Shown piece after piece: positions 2 to 59,253 of a stretch of DNA of 64,000 nucleotides. The stretch is from Bacteroidales bacterium (lineage in GTDB: Bacteria; Bacteroidota; Bacteroidia; Bacteroidales; UBA932): assembly GCA_017938925.1 (NCBI GenBank), contig JAGBAO010000010.1, forward strand, positions 62,001 to 126,000, written 5' to 3'. Both the position numbers and the translations under genes were made by a program. Numbering within the stretch: position 1 is the first letter of the stretch; each line of letters begins with the position of its first letter. The notes below the pieces were generated by a model. It had not been told where the DNA came from. It saw nothing but the letters and a program-made list of their open reading frames with translations, and ran no database searches.

Positions 2-721
2 ATACTCATCGAGACTTCGACCGCACTCTGCTCCGTAGCACTGGCAGAAGACGGTGCAGTGACCGCATACCGCGAAAGTTCAGAGCCCAAGGCCCACGCG
101 TCCCTCACAGCTGTTTTCGTGCAGGAAGTGCTTGCAGAAAGAGGTGTGACTCTTGCGGATTGCGACGCAGTGTGCGTGAGCATGGGCCCGGGATCTTACA
201 CCGGACTCCGCGTGGGAGTATCCACTGCCAAGGGACTGTGTTTCGGAAGCGGAAAGCCGCTGCTTGCCGTCGGAACACTGGACACCCTGGTTGCACAGGC
301 GGGAGAGATTCCCGGTCAAGCCGGGAATGACGGAAGTTCCCCATACAGTTTCTTAATCCCGATGATCGATGCCCGCAGGATGGAGGTGTACGCAGCAGTG
401 TGGGGGCGCGCAGCTGCCGGAGAATGCGGTCACTGCATGAAACAGATCACCGAAACAGCACCGGTAATAGTTGACGAAAACAGCTTTGCAGAATATCTGG
501 AGCAGGGACCGGTTCTCTTTATAGGAGACGGCGCCGGCAAATGTGCTGATGTCATAAAGCATCCGAACGCTCATTTCTGCCAGTGCCACCCAAAAGCATC
601 CTCAATGCTCTCCCCTGCCCTCGAGGCCCTTCGCGCCGGCAACTTCAAGGACGTGGCCTACTTCGAGCCATTCTACCTCAAGGAATTCGTCGCCACCGTC
701 AGCAAGAAGAAACTCTTCTAG
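2..721 (+). CDS. tsaB: tRNA threonylcarbamoyladenosine biosynthesis protein TsaB (5' partial)
   Basis: TsaB is the inactive Kae1-like partner of TsaD in the complex that adds threonylcarbamoyl to A37 of ANN-decoding tRNAs. The reading frame is open from base 2 and begins ILIETSTALCSVAL, the ASKHA N-terminus that normally follows only one to three residues, so the start codon is just outside the window. The GTG at 59 is internal. The motif SMGPGSYTGLRVGVSTAKG is diagnostic, as is PMIDARRMEVYAA. Oddity: the loop between these motifs reads GEIPGQAGNDG and is encoded by a perfect-stem palindrome (305-334) found again inside tilS. The gene ends with TAG at 719 and faces a decayed rhuM on the other strand. 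Confidence 0.93.
   Translation: MLIETSTALCSVALAEDGAVTAYRESSEPKAHASLTAVFVQEVLAERGVTLADCDAVCVSMGPGSYTGLRVGVSTAKGLCFGSGKPLLAVGTLDTLVAQAGEIPGQAGNDGSSPYSFLIPMIDARRMEVYAAVWGRAAAGECGHCMKQITETAPVIVDENSFAEYLEQGPVLFIGDGAGKCADVIKHPNAHFCQCHPKASSMLSPALEALRAGNFKDVAYFEPFYLKEFVATVSKKKLF
305..334. repeat. Palindromic repeat inside tsaB
   Basis: The core is an 8-bp perfect stem, ATTCCCGG at 308-315 and CCGGGAAT at 321-328, around the loop TCAAG, followed by GACGGA. It matches the copy in tilS (57248-57277) at 29 of 30 bases. It is translated in frame as EIPGQAGNDG. Confidence 0.85.
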
Positions 722-53975: not shown

Positions 53976-56591
53976 CTATAAGGCCTTTGATGTCTTGACG
54001 AGACTGTCGCCGAGGCCGATCGTATAGCCTTGCGAGAAGAACACAACCCTGTTGAAGGTGTCCGCAAGGAGTATAAGAGGCAGACGGCCGTTCTTTTCAA
54101 GCTTCATCTCGGTCGCGATCATCCTGCGGATACTTCCATCCTTGTCTATGCCGAACTTCACAGTCGAAGGCAGATTGAAGTGTTCAGAACGGAATTTCCT
54201 GCAGTCATCCTCAGTCGCAAATATGATCACTATAGGACGTCCCCAGGCCTCCAGTTCTGCAGCTGCAGCCGATATATCCATGAAGGCATGATTCGTCGGC
54301 TCAGTTCCGTAATCCACGAGGGCTACGGCGAAATAGCCGCGGCCTGTGGTTTCAAGAATAGACTTCTCATTTCCATCAAGAGTAAGATATTTTGCCTCCG
54401 AATCGAAGCTTCCTATGACACGGATCTGATCCTTGATGTCCCTCATAACGAGGTCTGCCACAGTGGTCTTACCCTCTTCGACTGTAAGGAAAGTGATATC
54501 TGCAAAGACATTTCCACCGGACATCCTGGAGCCGCTGACCAGCATATAGTAGCCGCAGTCCATTTCCGCAGGCTTCCTGAAAAGCTCCGACCACACTCCC
54601 TTGCCATAATTCAGAAGCTTGAAGGTGCCATCCTCATATTTTGAAATCGTGAAGTGAGTCTTGTACTTCGGATCATCGAGAAGAGGAATCTCCGAATAAC
54701 GCAGCTGGAGTTTTCCCTTAGGGCCGGCCACCTGTTCCTCTGCATTGAAGTCCACATCATAGACCACTCCGTCCTTTTCATATTTCAGTGCTCCTGTCAC
54801 GGCATCGCACCATGCCGGAATTCCGAACGAACGGCACATCGCCACAAAGAAGATCTCTCTTGAATTCCTGTCGGCAGTCCTTGTTTCCCAGACCCTTTGA
54901 GGACGTATCTGGATGTAATAGCCGCTGATGTCGTCACGCATGGTGAGGTTGTCCCTGCACCAGTCCACCAACAGAGCCGGATTCATGCGTACCGAATCAG
55001 CAAGTGACTGAGGCACAGCGTTCTGAAGGAAAGAACGATAAGGAGACAGGAGCTCACAGTTCACCCTTGGGCACAACACTCTTGACGCCTCTGATGCAGG
55101 ATCAGTATTATAAAGATGGTCTGCAAGAATATACGCCGGAGTGTCACGAAGATCCTTTTCGGAAACCGACAGCAGGAGATCCAGAGCCCTGGCTCCCATC
55201 CCCTTTGTAGAGGCTTCTGAGAGAAATGCAGAAATTTCCGGATGATTTCCTCTTGAAGCCACCATCACGCGGGCTGTCTTTTCTGAATCCAAGCCATGCT
55301 TGCGTGCAAATTCATGTGATTTCGCCTCATCGTAGAAGGTGGCCACATAGGCATTCCTGAGCGAGTCCTCATATTCCAGTCTGCACAGGTTCTCCGCAAC
55401 CTGCTCAGGGGTCACATCCGGAATCTGAGCATTCTCCACTGGCGGCACGACCTCCATTTCCAGATGAGGGATCTGGCTGAACTCCTTCTTGTCAAGCACG
55501 ATGGTGACCTCCTTATCCTTTCCATAAGACACCTTTGCAAAGCCGAATCTTCCGTCCTTGGCAGCATAGACCATCATGTCCCCGAGTCCGGCTGTCAGCC
55601 AGGTGCGTCCTTCCGCATCGGATTTCTTATATGCGACATTGGTGAAGGCAGAATAGTTATATATCTGGAAATTAACCTTGGCACCCTCAACAGGAGTTCC
55701 GTCTTCCGCCACAACAGTGATGATGACCTTAGCCGACTCAGGAGCATAGTTCTCTATCACGTTGATCTCCGTATAATTAGGATTCTGCTGCACGATTTCC
55801 TCCGGTCCGTCATATCTGCCTATGACATTGGTGTGCATGAGCATTCCGCGGCTGCCGGGAGCATTGAACCACGCGAGATTCAGAACCGGCTCCGGCTCAC
55901 AGGCACCCAGGAAGCACCATTCACCATCCACCCAGGCCTCCACCCAGGCATGGTTGCTGTCGGTGTGGGCCCAGCGAGGCGTATAGACCTGACGTGCAGG
56001 GATACCTACTGACCTGAGTGCCGCCACAAGAAGGGTCGACTCCTCGCCGCAGCGGCCGTAGGCAGTCTTCACCGTAGCCAACGGAGAACTTGTCCTGATG
56101 TCGGAAGGCATATATATGGCCTTCTCGTGGCACCAGTGATTCACTTCAAGCACGGCCTCGCGCATTCCCATATGCTTTATCCTTGGAGCAAGTTCCTCAT
56201 AAAAGACATAGCGCGAGCTGTCCAGATTCTCGTTGTTCACCCTGACCGGGAGCACAAAATGACGCACCTCACGCTCAGGCACCCTGCTTCCCCAAGGCAT
56301 TTCGTCCAAAGCCCTGCAGGTCATCCTGTAATGGTCGAGATAGTACTCCGGAGTCATGTTCAGCATATCTCCAAGCGGCATATATGCATAGAGAAACTCC
56401 AGAGCCTCCTTCTCGTCGGGTTTGAGCTGCATTGCATCAAGGTCTATGGAAGCCGCCTGAAGTATCGTCTGTCTGGTGGCAAGGTCCTGTCCGACCTGCT
56501 GACGGTATGAGCTGTCCGAGATAAAGTGAGTGGTACATCCTGTCAGGCAAAGAATTCCTGAAAGAATCGCTGTCAATGTCTTTTTCATCAT
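53976..56591 (-). CDS. Multidomain transglutaminase-like lipoprotein
   Basis: 871 residues. Lipobox cysteine at 19 (LTGC). A transglutaminase-like domain (about 145-245) has the catalytic Cys181 in YGRCGEES and His214 in SNHAWVEAW; the usual Asp-Pro is replaced by GACEPEP. A carboxypeptidase-regulatory/Ig-like domain follows (about 288-368). A second, degenerate transglutaminase copy is at about 565-620, with Arg575 at the Cys position (ADRNSREIFFVAMCRS against GRCGEESTLLVAALRS). The last 125 residues look like a thioredoxin fold without a CxxC pair. Likely cell-surface peptide or protein processing; target unknown. The start overlaps the tilS stop (ATGA). Confidence 0.85.
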   Translation of the reverse strand: MMKKTLTAILSGILCLTGCTTHFISDSSYRQQVGQDLATRQTILQAASIDLDAMQLKPDEKEALEFLYAYMPLGDMLNMTPEYYLDHYRMTCRALDEMPWGSRVPEREVRHFVLPVRVNNENLDSSRYVFYEELAPRIKHMGMREAVLEVNHWCHEKAIYMPSDIRTSSPLATVKTAYGRCGEESTLLVAALRSVGIPARQVYTPRWAHTDSNHAWVEAWVDGEWCFLGACEPEPVLNLAWFNAPGSRGMLMHTNVIGRYDGPEEIVQQNPNYTEINVIENYAPESAKVIITVVAEDGTPVEGAKVNFQIYNYSAFTNVAYKKSDAEGRTWLTAGLGDMMVYAAKDGRFGFAKVSYGKDKEVTIVLDKKEFSQIPHLEMEVVPPVENAQIPDVTPEQVAENLCRLEYEDSLRNAYVATFYDEAKSHEFARKHGLDSEKTARVMVASRGNHPEISAFLSEASTKGMGARALDLLLSVSEKDLRDTPAYILADHLYNTDPASEASRVLCPRVNCELLSPYRSFLQNAVPQSLADSVRMNPALLVDWCRDNLTMRDDISGYYIQIRPQRVWETRTADRNSREIFFVAMCRSFGIPAWCDAVTGALKYEKDGVVYDVDFNAEEQVAGPKGKLQLRYSEIPLLDDPKYKTHFTISKYEDGTFKLLNYGKGVWSELFRKPAEMDCGYYMLVSGSRMSGGNVFADITFLTVEEGKTTVADLVMRDIKDQIRVIGSFDSEAKYLTLDGNEKSILETTGRGYFAVALVDYGTEPTNHAFMDISAAAAELEAWGRPIVIIFATEDDCRKFRSEHFNLPSTVKFGIDKDGSIRRMIATEMKLEKNGRLPLILLADTFNRVVFFSQGYTIGLGDSLVKTSKAL

Positions 56592-58087
56592 TTCATTTCA
56601 GTTATTCTGATGACACGTCCTGTGGCATCGTTAATTTTGTATTTATCATCCATCCTTACGCAAAGGACTGCAGCCACACGGTTTTCCATGGCTCCCGCGC
56701 AGTCCGCAAGCATCACGGCTGAAGATTTTTCAAAGGCATCATATTTCAGGTCGGCAAAAAGGTCACTGACCTTCTTCTTTCCTTTCATCCCGAAAGGCAC
56801 AAACCAGTCTCCCTGACGCCATCTGCGCAGGGCAAACGGGAATCTGAGTCTGTCGGCGTCGAACTGAAGCACGCCTTCAGGCTGCTTTAACGGCATATTC
56901 TTCGTCCGCTCCAGTTCTTCCACACGAAACCTTCTTCCGCATATATGATAGGTCCCGGGACCTGGTACCGGCATGAAATCATCGCCGTGGGTCAGCGGTG
57001 CCCGGGTGTCTGACAAGTGGCGGGACGGATCTGGGTTCTCCTCGCGAGGGATTATCGTCAACTCTCCCCTTCCTGTCATCAGGACATGTGTGTCCGACTC
57101 GAAACGCTTACCCGAGACTGTGCGGTCGGAGGCGAGAAGATCTTCAATGGAGGCAAGGACAGGATGATTGAAGCCGTATGGTTCGAGGATATAGTATAAA
57201 AGGTATCGCCAGTGAGGGTGGGAGAGCAGGGGGGCTGTGGGGATGGAGAGATTCCCGGTCGAGCCGGGAATGACGGACTGGGAGCCGGAAATGACGGAGC
57301 TGCAATAGTCCTTCACTATTTCCGAGGCTTCACAGAAGTATCCCATTTCACGGTTGAGAGTGCGGATGAACGACGGGTTGATCTTCTCGAAGACCGGAAA
57401 CACCTCGTTGCGGATGCGGTTACGCTTGTAATCTGACAATGCGTTGGTGCTGTCCTCGCGATATGCAACCTTATTGACGAAGGCGTATCCCTCGATCATC
57501 TTGCGGGTGCACTCCAGCAAAGGGCGGATCAGCTTCAGATCAGCGGCATACGGCAGATCCGAAATCAGAGACATTCCCCCGAGTCCCTTCATACCAGTAC
57601 CACGCAAAAGATTGAGAATCAACGTCTCCGCATTATCATTCGCATTATGTGCCACAGCAACTGCTGCATATCCATGTTCCCTGCACAAGCGGGCAAACCA
57701 GCCATATCTGAGATCACGGGCGGCCATCTCTATGCTCACCCCGTGCTCCCTTGCATATTCCTCAGTATCAAAGTCAGTCACATGGCAGATTACACCATGC
57801 TCATCTGCCCAGGCACGCACAAGAGCTTCATCCCCGTCGCTTTCCTCACCTCTGAGATGAAAGTTGCAATGGGCAAGTGCAATGGCGTCAGAGCCATATT
57901 TCCTGAGAAAAAGATCTGCCATGCACATGGAATCGACTCCCCCGCTGACTGCCAGCAGAGCCCTTGACCTTCCTGATCCCGGAACGGTCAGTCCGTCGGA
58001 AGCCGTATGCGACACAGCACAAGGGGCCGACCAAATACTGATCAGCCCCTCTATCCTTTCCATCGCCTGAGCAAAATGCCTCTGCAT
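56588..58087 (-). CDS. tilS: tRNA(Ile)-lysidine synthase TilS
   Basis: 499 residues. Adds lysine to C34 of tRNA-Ile(CAU) so that it reads AUA, an essential step. PP-loop motif AVSGGVDSMCMADLF (from residue 47), then ALAHCNFHLRGEESDGDE and AVAHNANDNAETLILNLLRG. A C-terminal domain ends with the conserved FALRRWRQGDWFVPFGMKGKKKVSDLF. Oddity: residues about 264-280 (ISGSQSVIPGSTGNLSIP) in the linker are encoded by a palindromic repeat shared with tsaB. Its ATG overlaps the DUF3078 stop by one base. Confidence 0.95.
   Translation of the reverse strand: MQRHFAQAMERIEGLISIWSAPCAVSHTASDGLTVPGSGRSRALLAVSGGVDSMCMADLFLRKYGSDAIALAHCNFHLRGEESDGDEALVRAWADEHGVICHVTDFDTEEYAREHGVSIEMAARDLRYGWFARLCREHGYAAVAVAHNANDNAETLILNLLRGTGMKGLGGMSLISDLPYAADLKLIRPLLECTRKMIEGYAFVNKVAYREDSTNALSDYKRNRIRNEVFPVFEKINPSFIRTLNREMGYFCEASEIVKDYCSSVISGSQSVIPGSTGNLSIPTAPLLSHPHWRYLLYYILEPYGFNHPVLASIEDLLASDRTVSGKRFESDTHVLMTGRGELTIIPREENPDPSRHLSDTRAPLTHGDDFMPVPGPGTYHICGRRFRVEELERTKNMPLKQPEGVLQFDADRLRFPFALRRWRQGDWFVPFGMKGKKKVSDLFADLKYDAFEKSSAVMLADCAGAMENRVAAVLCVRMDDKYKINDATGRVIRITEMK
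57248..57277. repeat. Palindromic repeat inside tilS
   Basis: ATTCCCGG (57251-57258) and CCGGGAAT (57264-57271) form a perfect 8-bp stem. Identical at 29 of 30 bases to the tsaB copy at 305. A degraded half copy, GGGAGCCGGAAATGACGGAG, follows at 57280-57299. Here the repeat is read from the opposite strand, as SVIPGSTGNLS. Confidence 0.85.
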
Positions 58088-59253
58088 TATTTCTTAGATG
58101 CGATTGTGTAGGTGAATCCGAATGCGAGTGACTCCTTGAACTGCACACGCGCCTTTCCTTCAGGGAACTTGTCGATATCCTTAGGATTGGTTATCATGAT
58201 GGTGTCATCATAGATAAGGTTCGTGGTGAGTGTGAGCGAGAAGTACTTTGCGAGTTTCCAGTCTATACGGTTGTCCCAGTTGATACGAGGGCACTTTCCT
58301 CCCACAGTGTTCTGACCGGCGAGGTAGTTGTAGAAGAGAACGACCTGGGTCGTATACTTGAAGTTGTCGTTCACGTTCACTGCAGCGTCGACCTTGAGCT
58401 GGGCACCGAACTCGAATCTTGCACTCTGATACAGATTTCCGAGAGCACTTGCAGCCTTTTCGACATCTTCCTTCACACCTGCCGCCTGAGCATCTGCCAA
58501 AGCTTTTTCGGCAGCGCCGAGCATATCATCTGTGGTAGACTTCTTCAGATTCATCGAATAGCTCTTCCTGAGGAGGTCGTCACGGACGATGACATAACCT
58601 CCGGTGAGAGGCGCGAAGTTCACTGACAGCCACTTGGTCGGCTTGTAATCGATACCGAGTGCGAGATTAGTGTATGCAGGAGCAAGGAAACCTGACTTCA
58701 GAACGCGGGCATCTTTCCACAGGTCCTTGAGGAAACCCTTATCCTCAATTTCCTCAAGAGAGCCGTAACCGTCTGGAGTACCCGGAGTATTATAGTCATA
58801 TCCTGTAGTGAACTGAGACTTGAAATCAAAGTTTGCAGAGAAGAACAGCACATCCTTGTATGCCTTGTATCCCCACTTGCTTTCAAGGTAGATACGGTCA
58901 GTGCTCTTCTGAAGGATCGGCTTTGACGAAGCATAGAGGAAACCGTAGTCGAGCTGGAGACGGTTGTTCCAGAACATCTCGTTCCTTGCATAGTTGGCGT
59001 TTCCGTCGATGAATCCCTGGAAGCTCACGGTGTTGTCTCCACCGGCTGCCCAGTTGGTAAGCGATGTCTGACCGACATTGAGGTTTGTCATCAGGGAATT
59101 GGTCCAATACTTAGGCTTCTCGACCTCAGGAGCCACTTCCGGAGCTTCTGTAATTGCCTTTGCCGCCTCTGCAGCAGCTGTCTGAGCATCCTGAGCTGAC
59201 GCCGACACCATTGCGCATGCCGCGCAGATGAATGAGATAAATATTTTTTTCAT
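58087..59253 (-). CDS. DUF3078 family outer membrane-like protein
   Basis: 388 residues from the ATG at 59253 (MKKIFISFICAACAMVSASA, signal peptide). An Ala/Glu-rich stretch (about 21-50) precedes a barrel-like domain. LNVGQTSLTNWAAGGDNTVS is the family signature, and the protein ends in aromatic-alternating strands with LAFGFTYTIASKK. Probably an outer-membrane beta barrel of unknown function, confined to Bacteroidetes. Linked to tilS by TAATG overlap. Confidence 0.85.
   Translation of the reverse strand: MKKIFISFICAACAMVSASAQDAQTAAAEAAKAITEAPEVAPEVEKPKYWTNSLMTNLNVGQTSLTNWAAGGDNTVSFQGFIDGNANYARNEMFWNNRLQLDYGFLYASSKPILQKSTDRIYLESKWGYKAYKDVLFFSANFDFKSQFTTGYDYNTPGTPDGYGSLEEIEDKGFLKDLWKDARVLKSGFLAPAYTNLALGIDYKPTKWLSVNFAPLTGGYVIVRDDLLRKSYSMNLKKSTTDDMLGAAEKALADAQAAGVKEDVEKAASALGNLYQSARFEFGAQLKVDAAVNVNDNFKYTTQVVLFYNYLAGQNTVGGKCPRINWDNRIDWKLAKYFSLTLTTNLIYDDTIMITNPKDIDKFPEGKARVQFKESLAFGFTYTIASKK

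Follow-up and report, generated by a model that had tools for sequence, protein, structure and literature searches.

The closest described relatives of the repeats studied here are the CGTC-tagged REPs, a superfamily that includes dRS3 of Neisseria as well as RPE-4 and RPE-6 of Rickettsia and that has been reported for Bacteroidetes (Di Nocera et al. 2013, PMC3733652). Its members are defined by an unpaired CGTC (or TGTC, CCTC) at one end, a stem of 8-9 bp that begins with AT, a loop of 4-5 nt and a short unpaired tail, which is mostly CCA. They have no dedicated transposase, and the 2013 survey states as open how they move. Intragenic copies often occur as dimers or groups that code for 20-30 aa, and the genes concerned include a tRNA pseudouridine synthase, a tRNA synthetase and many repair genes. 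The survey also describes REP clusters that are reiterated in tandem together with flanking DNA, and different REPs at about the same recB site in two Xanthomonas species (PMC3733652). Two further systems are similar. In the extracts of the literature used here, the Rickettsia RPEs are palindromes inserted in frame into many proteins with a variety of functions. The GTAG REPs and REPINs are short tagged hairpins scattered over the genome, and the portions of the literature on which we drew link them to Y1/RAYT enzymes.

The window, by which we mean the whole analysed stretch of 64,000 nucleotides from a Bacteroidales bacterium, carries two copies of such an element. Both lie in essential genes: tilS (tRNA(Ile)-lysidine synthase, 56588..58087, minus strand) has an intact frame of 499 aa, in which the element codes for residues of about 265-281, and tsaB (dimerisation subunit of t6A biosynthesis, 2..721, plus strand) is cut at its 5' end by the window edge. 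The identities pass curated cut-offs (TIGR02432 and TIGR02433 for TilS, TIGR03725 for TsaB), so the original prediction was right that both hosts modify tRNA. The copy in tsaB (302-334) and the copy in tilS (57245-57277) are identical in 32/33 bases (97%), for which the predicted 29 of 30 was slightly low. They lie on the same DNA strand while the host genes run in opposite directions, and therefore the peptides differ, with EIPGQAGNDG in tsaB and SVIPGSTGNLS in tilS. One element thus yields two peptides from opposite coding strands, as had been predicted (there as PGQAGNDG and SVIPGSTGNLS).

On the minus strand the two cores (57251-57275 in tilS and 308-332 in tsaB) consist of CGTC and ATTCCCGG-loop-CCGGGAAT, followed by CTC. 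The full unit in tilS spans 57248..57275 (minus strand; tag CGTC, stem ATTCCCGG, loop CTCGA, CCGGGAAT, tail CTC) and codes for VIPGSTGNL, and the full unit in tsaB spans 305..332 (minus strand; loop CTTGA) and codes for EIPGQAGND on the opposite strand. When folded as single-stranded DNA either core reaches -8.5 kcal/mol, with z values of -3.4 and -4.0 against 200 shuffles. Both copies thus have the unpaired CGTC at one end, an 8-bp ATTCCCGG stem that begins with AT and a 5-nt loop (6 nt in a few other copies), and like CGTC REPs they belong to a set of dispersed copies of which some are intragenic; the tail is CTC or CTCTCC, compared to mostly CCA in the definition. The element is a CGTC-tagged REP. 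It also works like an RPE, as it lies in frame in functional-looking genes with intact TilS and TsaB frames that pass curated cut-offs, but we do not file it as one because the phylum differs; moreover, several hairpin types and both orientations occur here at one site. With the GTAG REPs it has the selfish-repeat behaviour in common, but the tag is CGTC and not GTAG/GTGG, and the element flanks none of the Y1 genes examined.

A 26-nt pattern of the element (at most 3 mismatches) was found at 17 places in the window's genome compared to 0 for the reversed-pattern control, and the stem pattern at 36 places compared to 1, so the repeat is not due to chance; we count about 35 copies. Across 16 distinct 24-nt forms three of the eight stem pairs were altered on both sides, in 20 cells, and 0/500 shuffles reach 20. 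The number of both-sides-changed pairs and the number of further pair types showed no excess over the shuffles (236 and 413 of 500). The element is hence a dispersed multi-copy family with compensatory stem changes. The copies occupy 35 distinct contexts, including one match (L026) that by eye is a chance match within an ordinary gene. Four copies were judged to be intragenic, namely those in tsaB, in tilS, in a gene with a PG_1098 ferredoxin-like and a THUMP-like domain (the THUMP gene in the following) and in a gene without Pfam family. Six other element-spanning ORFs of this genome were scanned and rejected: four of 105-135 aa have no family, one is below the cut-off, and the sixth is a MatE gene in which the element precedes the domain. 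The remaining element-spanning ORFs were set aside by eye. We also rejected carriage by phages, with 0 exact 28-nt matches in viral contigs and no match of the tilS region to a phage record. A protein without Pfam match (L049:635-1639) bears elements in the window's genome, and by eye so does its homolog (L279:1013-2032) in the relative G365; in both, PVKPGMT-type units occupy the same C-terminal position.

Eight pairs of elements are at most 150 nt apart, with the tags inside in 5 cases, outside in 1 and in tandem in 2. In the survey the tags are mainly outside and tag-inside pairs are rare, though this is a tendency and not part of the definition (PMC3733652). Two tag-to-tag pairs (C3:25644-25691 and C5:100320-100368) have a common ATGACGTCAT junction and unite two stem subtypes (TTGCCGG with CCCCGA).

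The tilS copy is adjoined by a second tag and left arm, CGTCATTTCCGG, at 57285-57296 on the minus strand. The original prediction had described this neighbour as a degraded half copy. The half copy is real, but it is not the product of random decay: it is a half unit of a recurring architecture, formed by the tag and the left arm and ending at the hairpin loop. The half unit in tilS spans 57276..57296 (minus strand) with a period of 21 nt, contains CGTC and the left arm ATTTCCGG followed by a 9-nt spacer, and codes for VISGSQS. Around the 34 full copies in the window's genome, the 90 nt adjoining the tag contain 11 equally oriented motifs of tag and left arm (expected: 0.2) and the tail side contains 0; 3 inverted motifs were also located on the tag side. 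Under a stricter rule a half adjoins the tag in 6/34 full copies and the tail in 0. The relative G365 has 182 copies of another type (control: 0), and for the 98 distinct copies that were read half motifs were tag-sided in 43 cases and tail-sided in 5, with 1 further inverted motif, where, as in all these tag-side counts, motifs are not independent if the copies sit in arrays. The polarity is independent of the direction of the gene, as the arrays are forward in tilS and reversed in aroD-aroA and mutS.

We then compared 62 half units to the neighbouring full copy. The identity was 81-98% across positions 12-16 and only 0-45% across positions 17-25, and the drop coincides with the start of the hairpin loop; the high identity at positions 1-11 is partly caused by the search motif, which spans them. 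The spacing within arrays was a multiple of three in 12/12 cases inside genes compared to 24/50 elsewhere (p 0.0007), where the 12 genic spacings come from nine loci accepted as genic (including L279, without Pfam family) and some of the 50 others may be genic as well. At tilS the window has one half unit and L116, the nearest named relative and an independent MAG, has two. We read the polarity, the halves that end at the loop and the unit count in L116 as signs of local tandem duplication that stops at the hairpin loop. The original prediction had left the choice between repeated insertion and local duplication, and the polar tandem array favours the latter. Unlike those of the published CGTC REPs, the arrays here are built from tag-side half units. 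Neither half nor truncated is used as a word in the main text of PMC3733652, and the titles and abstract openings retrieved from the open literature yielded no description of polar half-unit arrays or of such repeats in this genus. Half units record a directional process that ends at the hairpin loop, so that gain, loss and change of unit number are directly testable.

Further arrays were read in G365 (L226, L236 and L256). Its tilS has a frame of 644-650 aa that contains four full elements of type B, and in aroD-aroA and mutS reversed full copies are followed by 3 and 2 half units, as determined by motif. At L291:2-1771, a possible further host, the ORF of an RluA-like pseudouridine synthase begins with a tandem array of at least 7 half units (24 nt each) plus a full copy, all of them putatively coding.

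The genus code of the window's organism comprises more than 400 genomes. The nearest named relatives that we found are five Bacteroidales MAGs with 52-53% TilS identity, one of which is Candidatus Cryptobacteroides, and judging from these matches this genus name may apply to the window's organism as well. TsaB was found in 396/400 genus genomes, and we aligned the window with the 29 best others. TilS had a match in 57/61 genomes and 30 loci were aligned, one of them the window's own gene; 33 rows including the window were scored, consisting of three of the aligned loci, L116-L120 and loci of further relatives (L152, L161 and L162 were left out as partial genes or a duplicate row). The THUMP gene was obtained from 28/29 genomes, which gives 29 rows with the window. 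When scored against seven consensus strings (score of at least 16), TilS gave 29 matches (among them 3 half units), TsaB gave 14 and the THUMP gene 2, and a shuffled control with one copy per gene gave 0. The matches cluster at window-TilS residues 32, 181-182, 270-275, 348 and 353-362, at TsaB residues 101-106 and 136-137 and at THUMP gene residues 291 and 313. With a looser threshold (score 13, p 0.01) the loops passed in 6/33, 9/33, 13/30 and 3/29 rows compared to 15/398, 4/172 and 6/343 control windows of the same genes, some of which are real further sites.

The presence of an element goes with a longer loop (p 0.02 and 0.0003 for two TilS loops, 0.00006 for the TsaB loop). For tsaB the presence and absence of the element is fairly clear: the loop measures 7-13 aa in 15/17 cases without a recognised element and 13-34 aa with one. 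For tilS, where the original prediction had proposed to look for clean presence or absence, it is not clean, since the loop of the window has 29 aa compared to 22-28 aa in 20/24 element-free loops. Native residues were thus probably lost or replaced, and the small net gain in TilS means that simple insertion is not proven.

Across about 30 related species the same loops are without the element or contain other CGTC-REP types in either orientation. The original prediction was to fall if all relatives kept the segment with a drifting palindrome, and this is not what we observed. One and the same loop can hold ATTCCCGG-like stems in both orientations, CGTCATTGCGAGGAGCGAAGCGACGTGGCAATC or several TGTCAT-CGAGC...GAGAAATC forms. 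The loops in TilS, TsaB and the THUMP gene thus vary between related species in the presence of the element, the REP type, the orientation and the reading frame. A quick tree of 29 species, calculated without the loops, requires at least 10, 6, 7, 4, 5 and 3 changes at the six sites; the total of 35 is approximate because the states were set by hand and include weak ones (such as G415 and G400 for TilS; G062, G258 and G421 for TsaB; G360 for the THUMP gene) and because 9/26 inner branches are weak. Given the recB case in Xanthomonas (PMC3733652), the filling of a same site is as such not new. The difference is that here several REP types fill the same loops of several genes across about 30 species.

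To locate the sites in the protein we used an AlphaFold2 model of TilS, which was built from six sequences and has modest confidence (mean pLDDT 66.7, pTM 0.41). In this model the element-coded stretch falls in a coil (266-279) that follows a helix (249-265) and precedes a strand (280-283). Among the other sites, residue 32 is in a low-confidence coil, 181 is a turn between two strands and 348-370 is a coil, so the TilS element sites are predicted to lie in coil or turns. The TsaB insert sits in an alignment gap relative to the solved E. coli-type TsaB. The earlier suggestion that both loops tolerate the insert agrees with these results. As a whole the tilS element is best explained, with good confidence, as an in-frame element in the linker after the TilS catalytic domain.

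We consider it very probable that the elements are selfish or passive REPs that are tolerated in linkers and that the half units result from local tandem duplication. Copies would often arise across the genome and those that break genes would be purged, while copies in linkers would drift as passengers. The number of half units would rise and fall through local tandem duplication, in which the hairpin guides the process and the break occurs at its loop, and selection would keep the spacing of arrays inside genes in frame. The loci would then be a natural record of how a repeat without known mover spreads while essential genes are left unbroken, and of how essential proteins can acquire sequence from short repeats. 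In this genus, close species differ in the presence, type and orientation of REPs in the loops of essential genes.

A first alternative concerns the mover. A Y1 transposase of the host (IS200/IS605, RAYT-like) might move the elements in trans. The window's genome has three Y1_Tnp matches, two of them above the cut-off, GTAG REPs are linked to such enzymes in the sources mentioned above, and a polarity towards the tag would suit an enzyme that reads the tag. However, none of the three Y1 loci read in this genome is flanked by the element, and 0/30 Y1 loci of the genus have a CGTC element within about 1.5 kb, which excludes regular flanking only, as chance alone would give about one or none at these copy numbers. 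One copy in the window's genome is separated from a Y1 ORF by about 1.25 kb that include another gene, which we take to be purC-like, and we therefore rejected a REPtron at this place (C16). The genome with the most type-A copies (G350, 184 copies) is not among the 296/400 genomes with a Y1 match, although PF01797 is weak on this clade (1/3 full ORFs over the cut-off) and divergent enzymes could be missed. We thus found no Y1/RAYT association, neither by adjacency to elements nor by presence across the genus, and regard this mover as unlikely. About equally doubtful is an undescribed activity that would read the CGTC tag and the single-stranded hairpin, break or switch at the loop, build the polar half-unit arrays and spread full copies, with the loops of RNA-modifying enzymes as favoured landing places.

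The host genes bear on a second alternative. In G365, 21 copies lie 45 nt or more inside ORFs with a length of 150 aa or more. Besides tilS, 19 ORFs were scanned, 11 of which have Pfam families, and we accepted as hosts RsmE, AroD-AroA, a DPP-IV-type peptidase, MutS, AroE, the THUMP gene and an outer-membrane protein, in addition to tilS with its four copies. The ORFs L237, L285 and L289 were set aside as the element is upstream of a plausible start. Three of the eight accepted families are of the RNA-modification kind (TilS, RsmE and the THUMP gene), but G365 was picked for its TilS and its THUMP match was already known, and hence we do not claim an enrichment. RNA-modifying enzymes are prominent among the hosts, not exclusive, which fits the list of REP-bearing genes in the survey (PMC3733652). 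As other genes are also hit, the link between the element and tRNA modification is suggestive only. RNA-modification genes nevertheless look over-represented, and pure tolerance does not obviously predict this, which counts against a passenger view.

It could be argued that the hairpins are kept for a role at the RNA level, where the stem-loops in the mRNAs of RNA-modifying enzymes would act as decoy substrates or attenuators in autoregulation. TilS, TsaB, the THUMP gene and, in the relative, RsmE are such hosts, and tRNA pseudouridine synthase and tRNA synthetase genes are among the published ones (PMC3733652). The tilS insert is common to the window and L116, and between the two 5/7 fourfold sites of the full tilS element are kept as computed (6/7 after a gap shift by eye), compared to 88/183 across the gene. 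These slightly better-kept sites (p about 0.05 by hand) hint at constraint at the DNA level or at conversion. We still regard an RNA-level role as improbable: many sister species have no recognised element at each site, aroD-aroA, mutS, aroE, the DPP-IV-type peptidase and the outer-membrane protein are hosts as well, and one site shows different orientations and hairpin types. A search of Rfam with 56400-58200 returned nothing at E values up to 1, and we rejected a known structured RNA at the tilS region.

Recruitment of the inserted peptide itself, say to form a flexible linker or a contact surface, is less credible still. The frame VIP-x-x-T-G or variants of it is found repeatedly where type-A inserts lie forward in TsaB and TilS, but across species one loop holds unrelated peptides (VIPGSTGNL, VIARSEATWQS, LSFRPSEASGEIS and CHPERSEGSV), which argues against a peptide function, and many sisters have no element there. 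An old, vertically inherited loop that looks palindromic by accident, or an assembly artefact, would account for the insert common to the window and its nearest named relative but is already contradicted by the same sequence family at 36 places, the insert in an independent MAG and the about 35 changes on the tree among relatives without or with different elements, and we give it next to no credence.

Two minor observations concern the wider genus. Across 400 genomes the counts of the type-A pattern range from 0 to 184 per genome with a distribution that by eye is two-humped, where the low counts are near the control level, so that the type-A family seems to have expanded in some species and vanished in others. 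In the tilS of G028 (L076) the frame contains CHSERSEES near the insert site of the window, and this peptide resembles what another CGTC-type repeat would encode.
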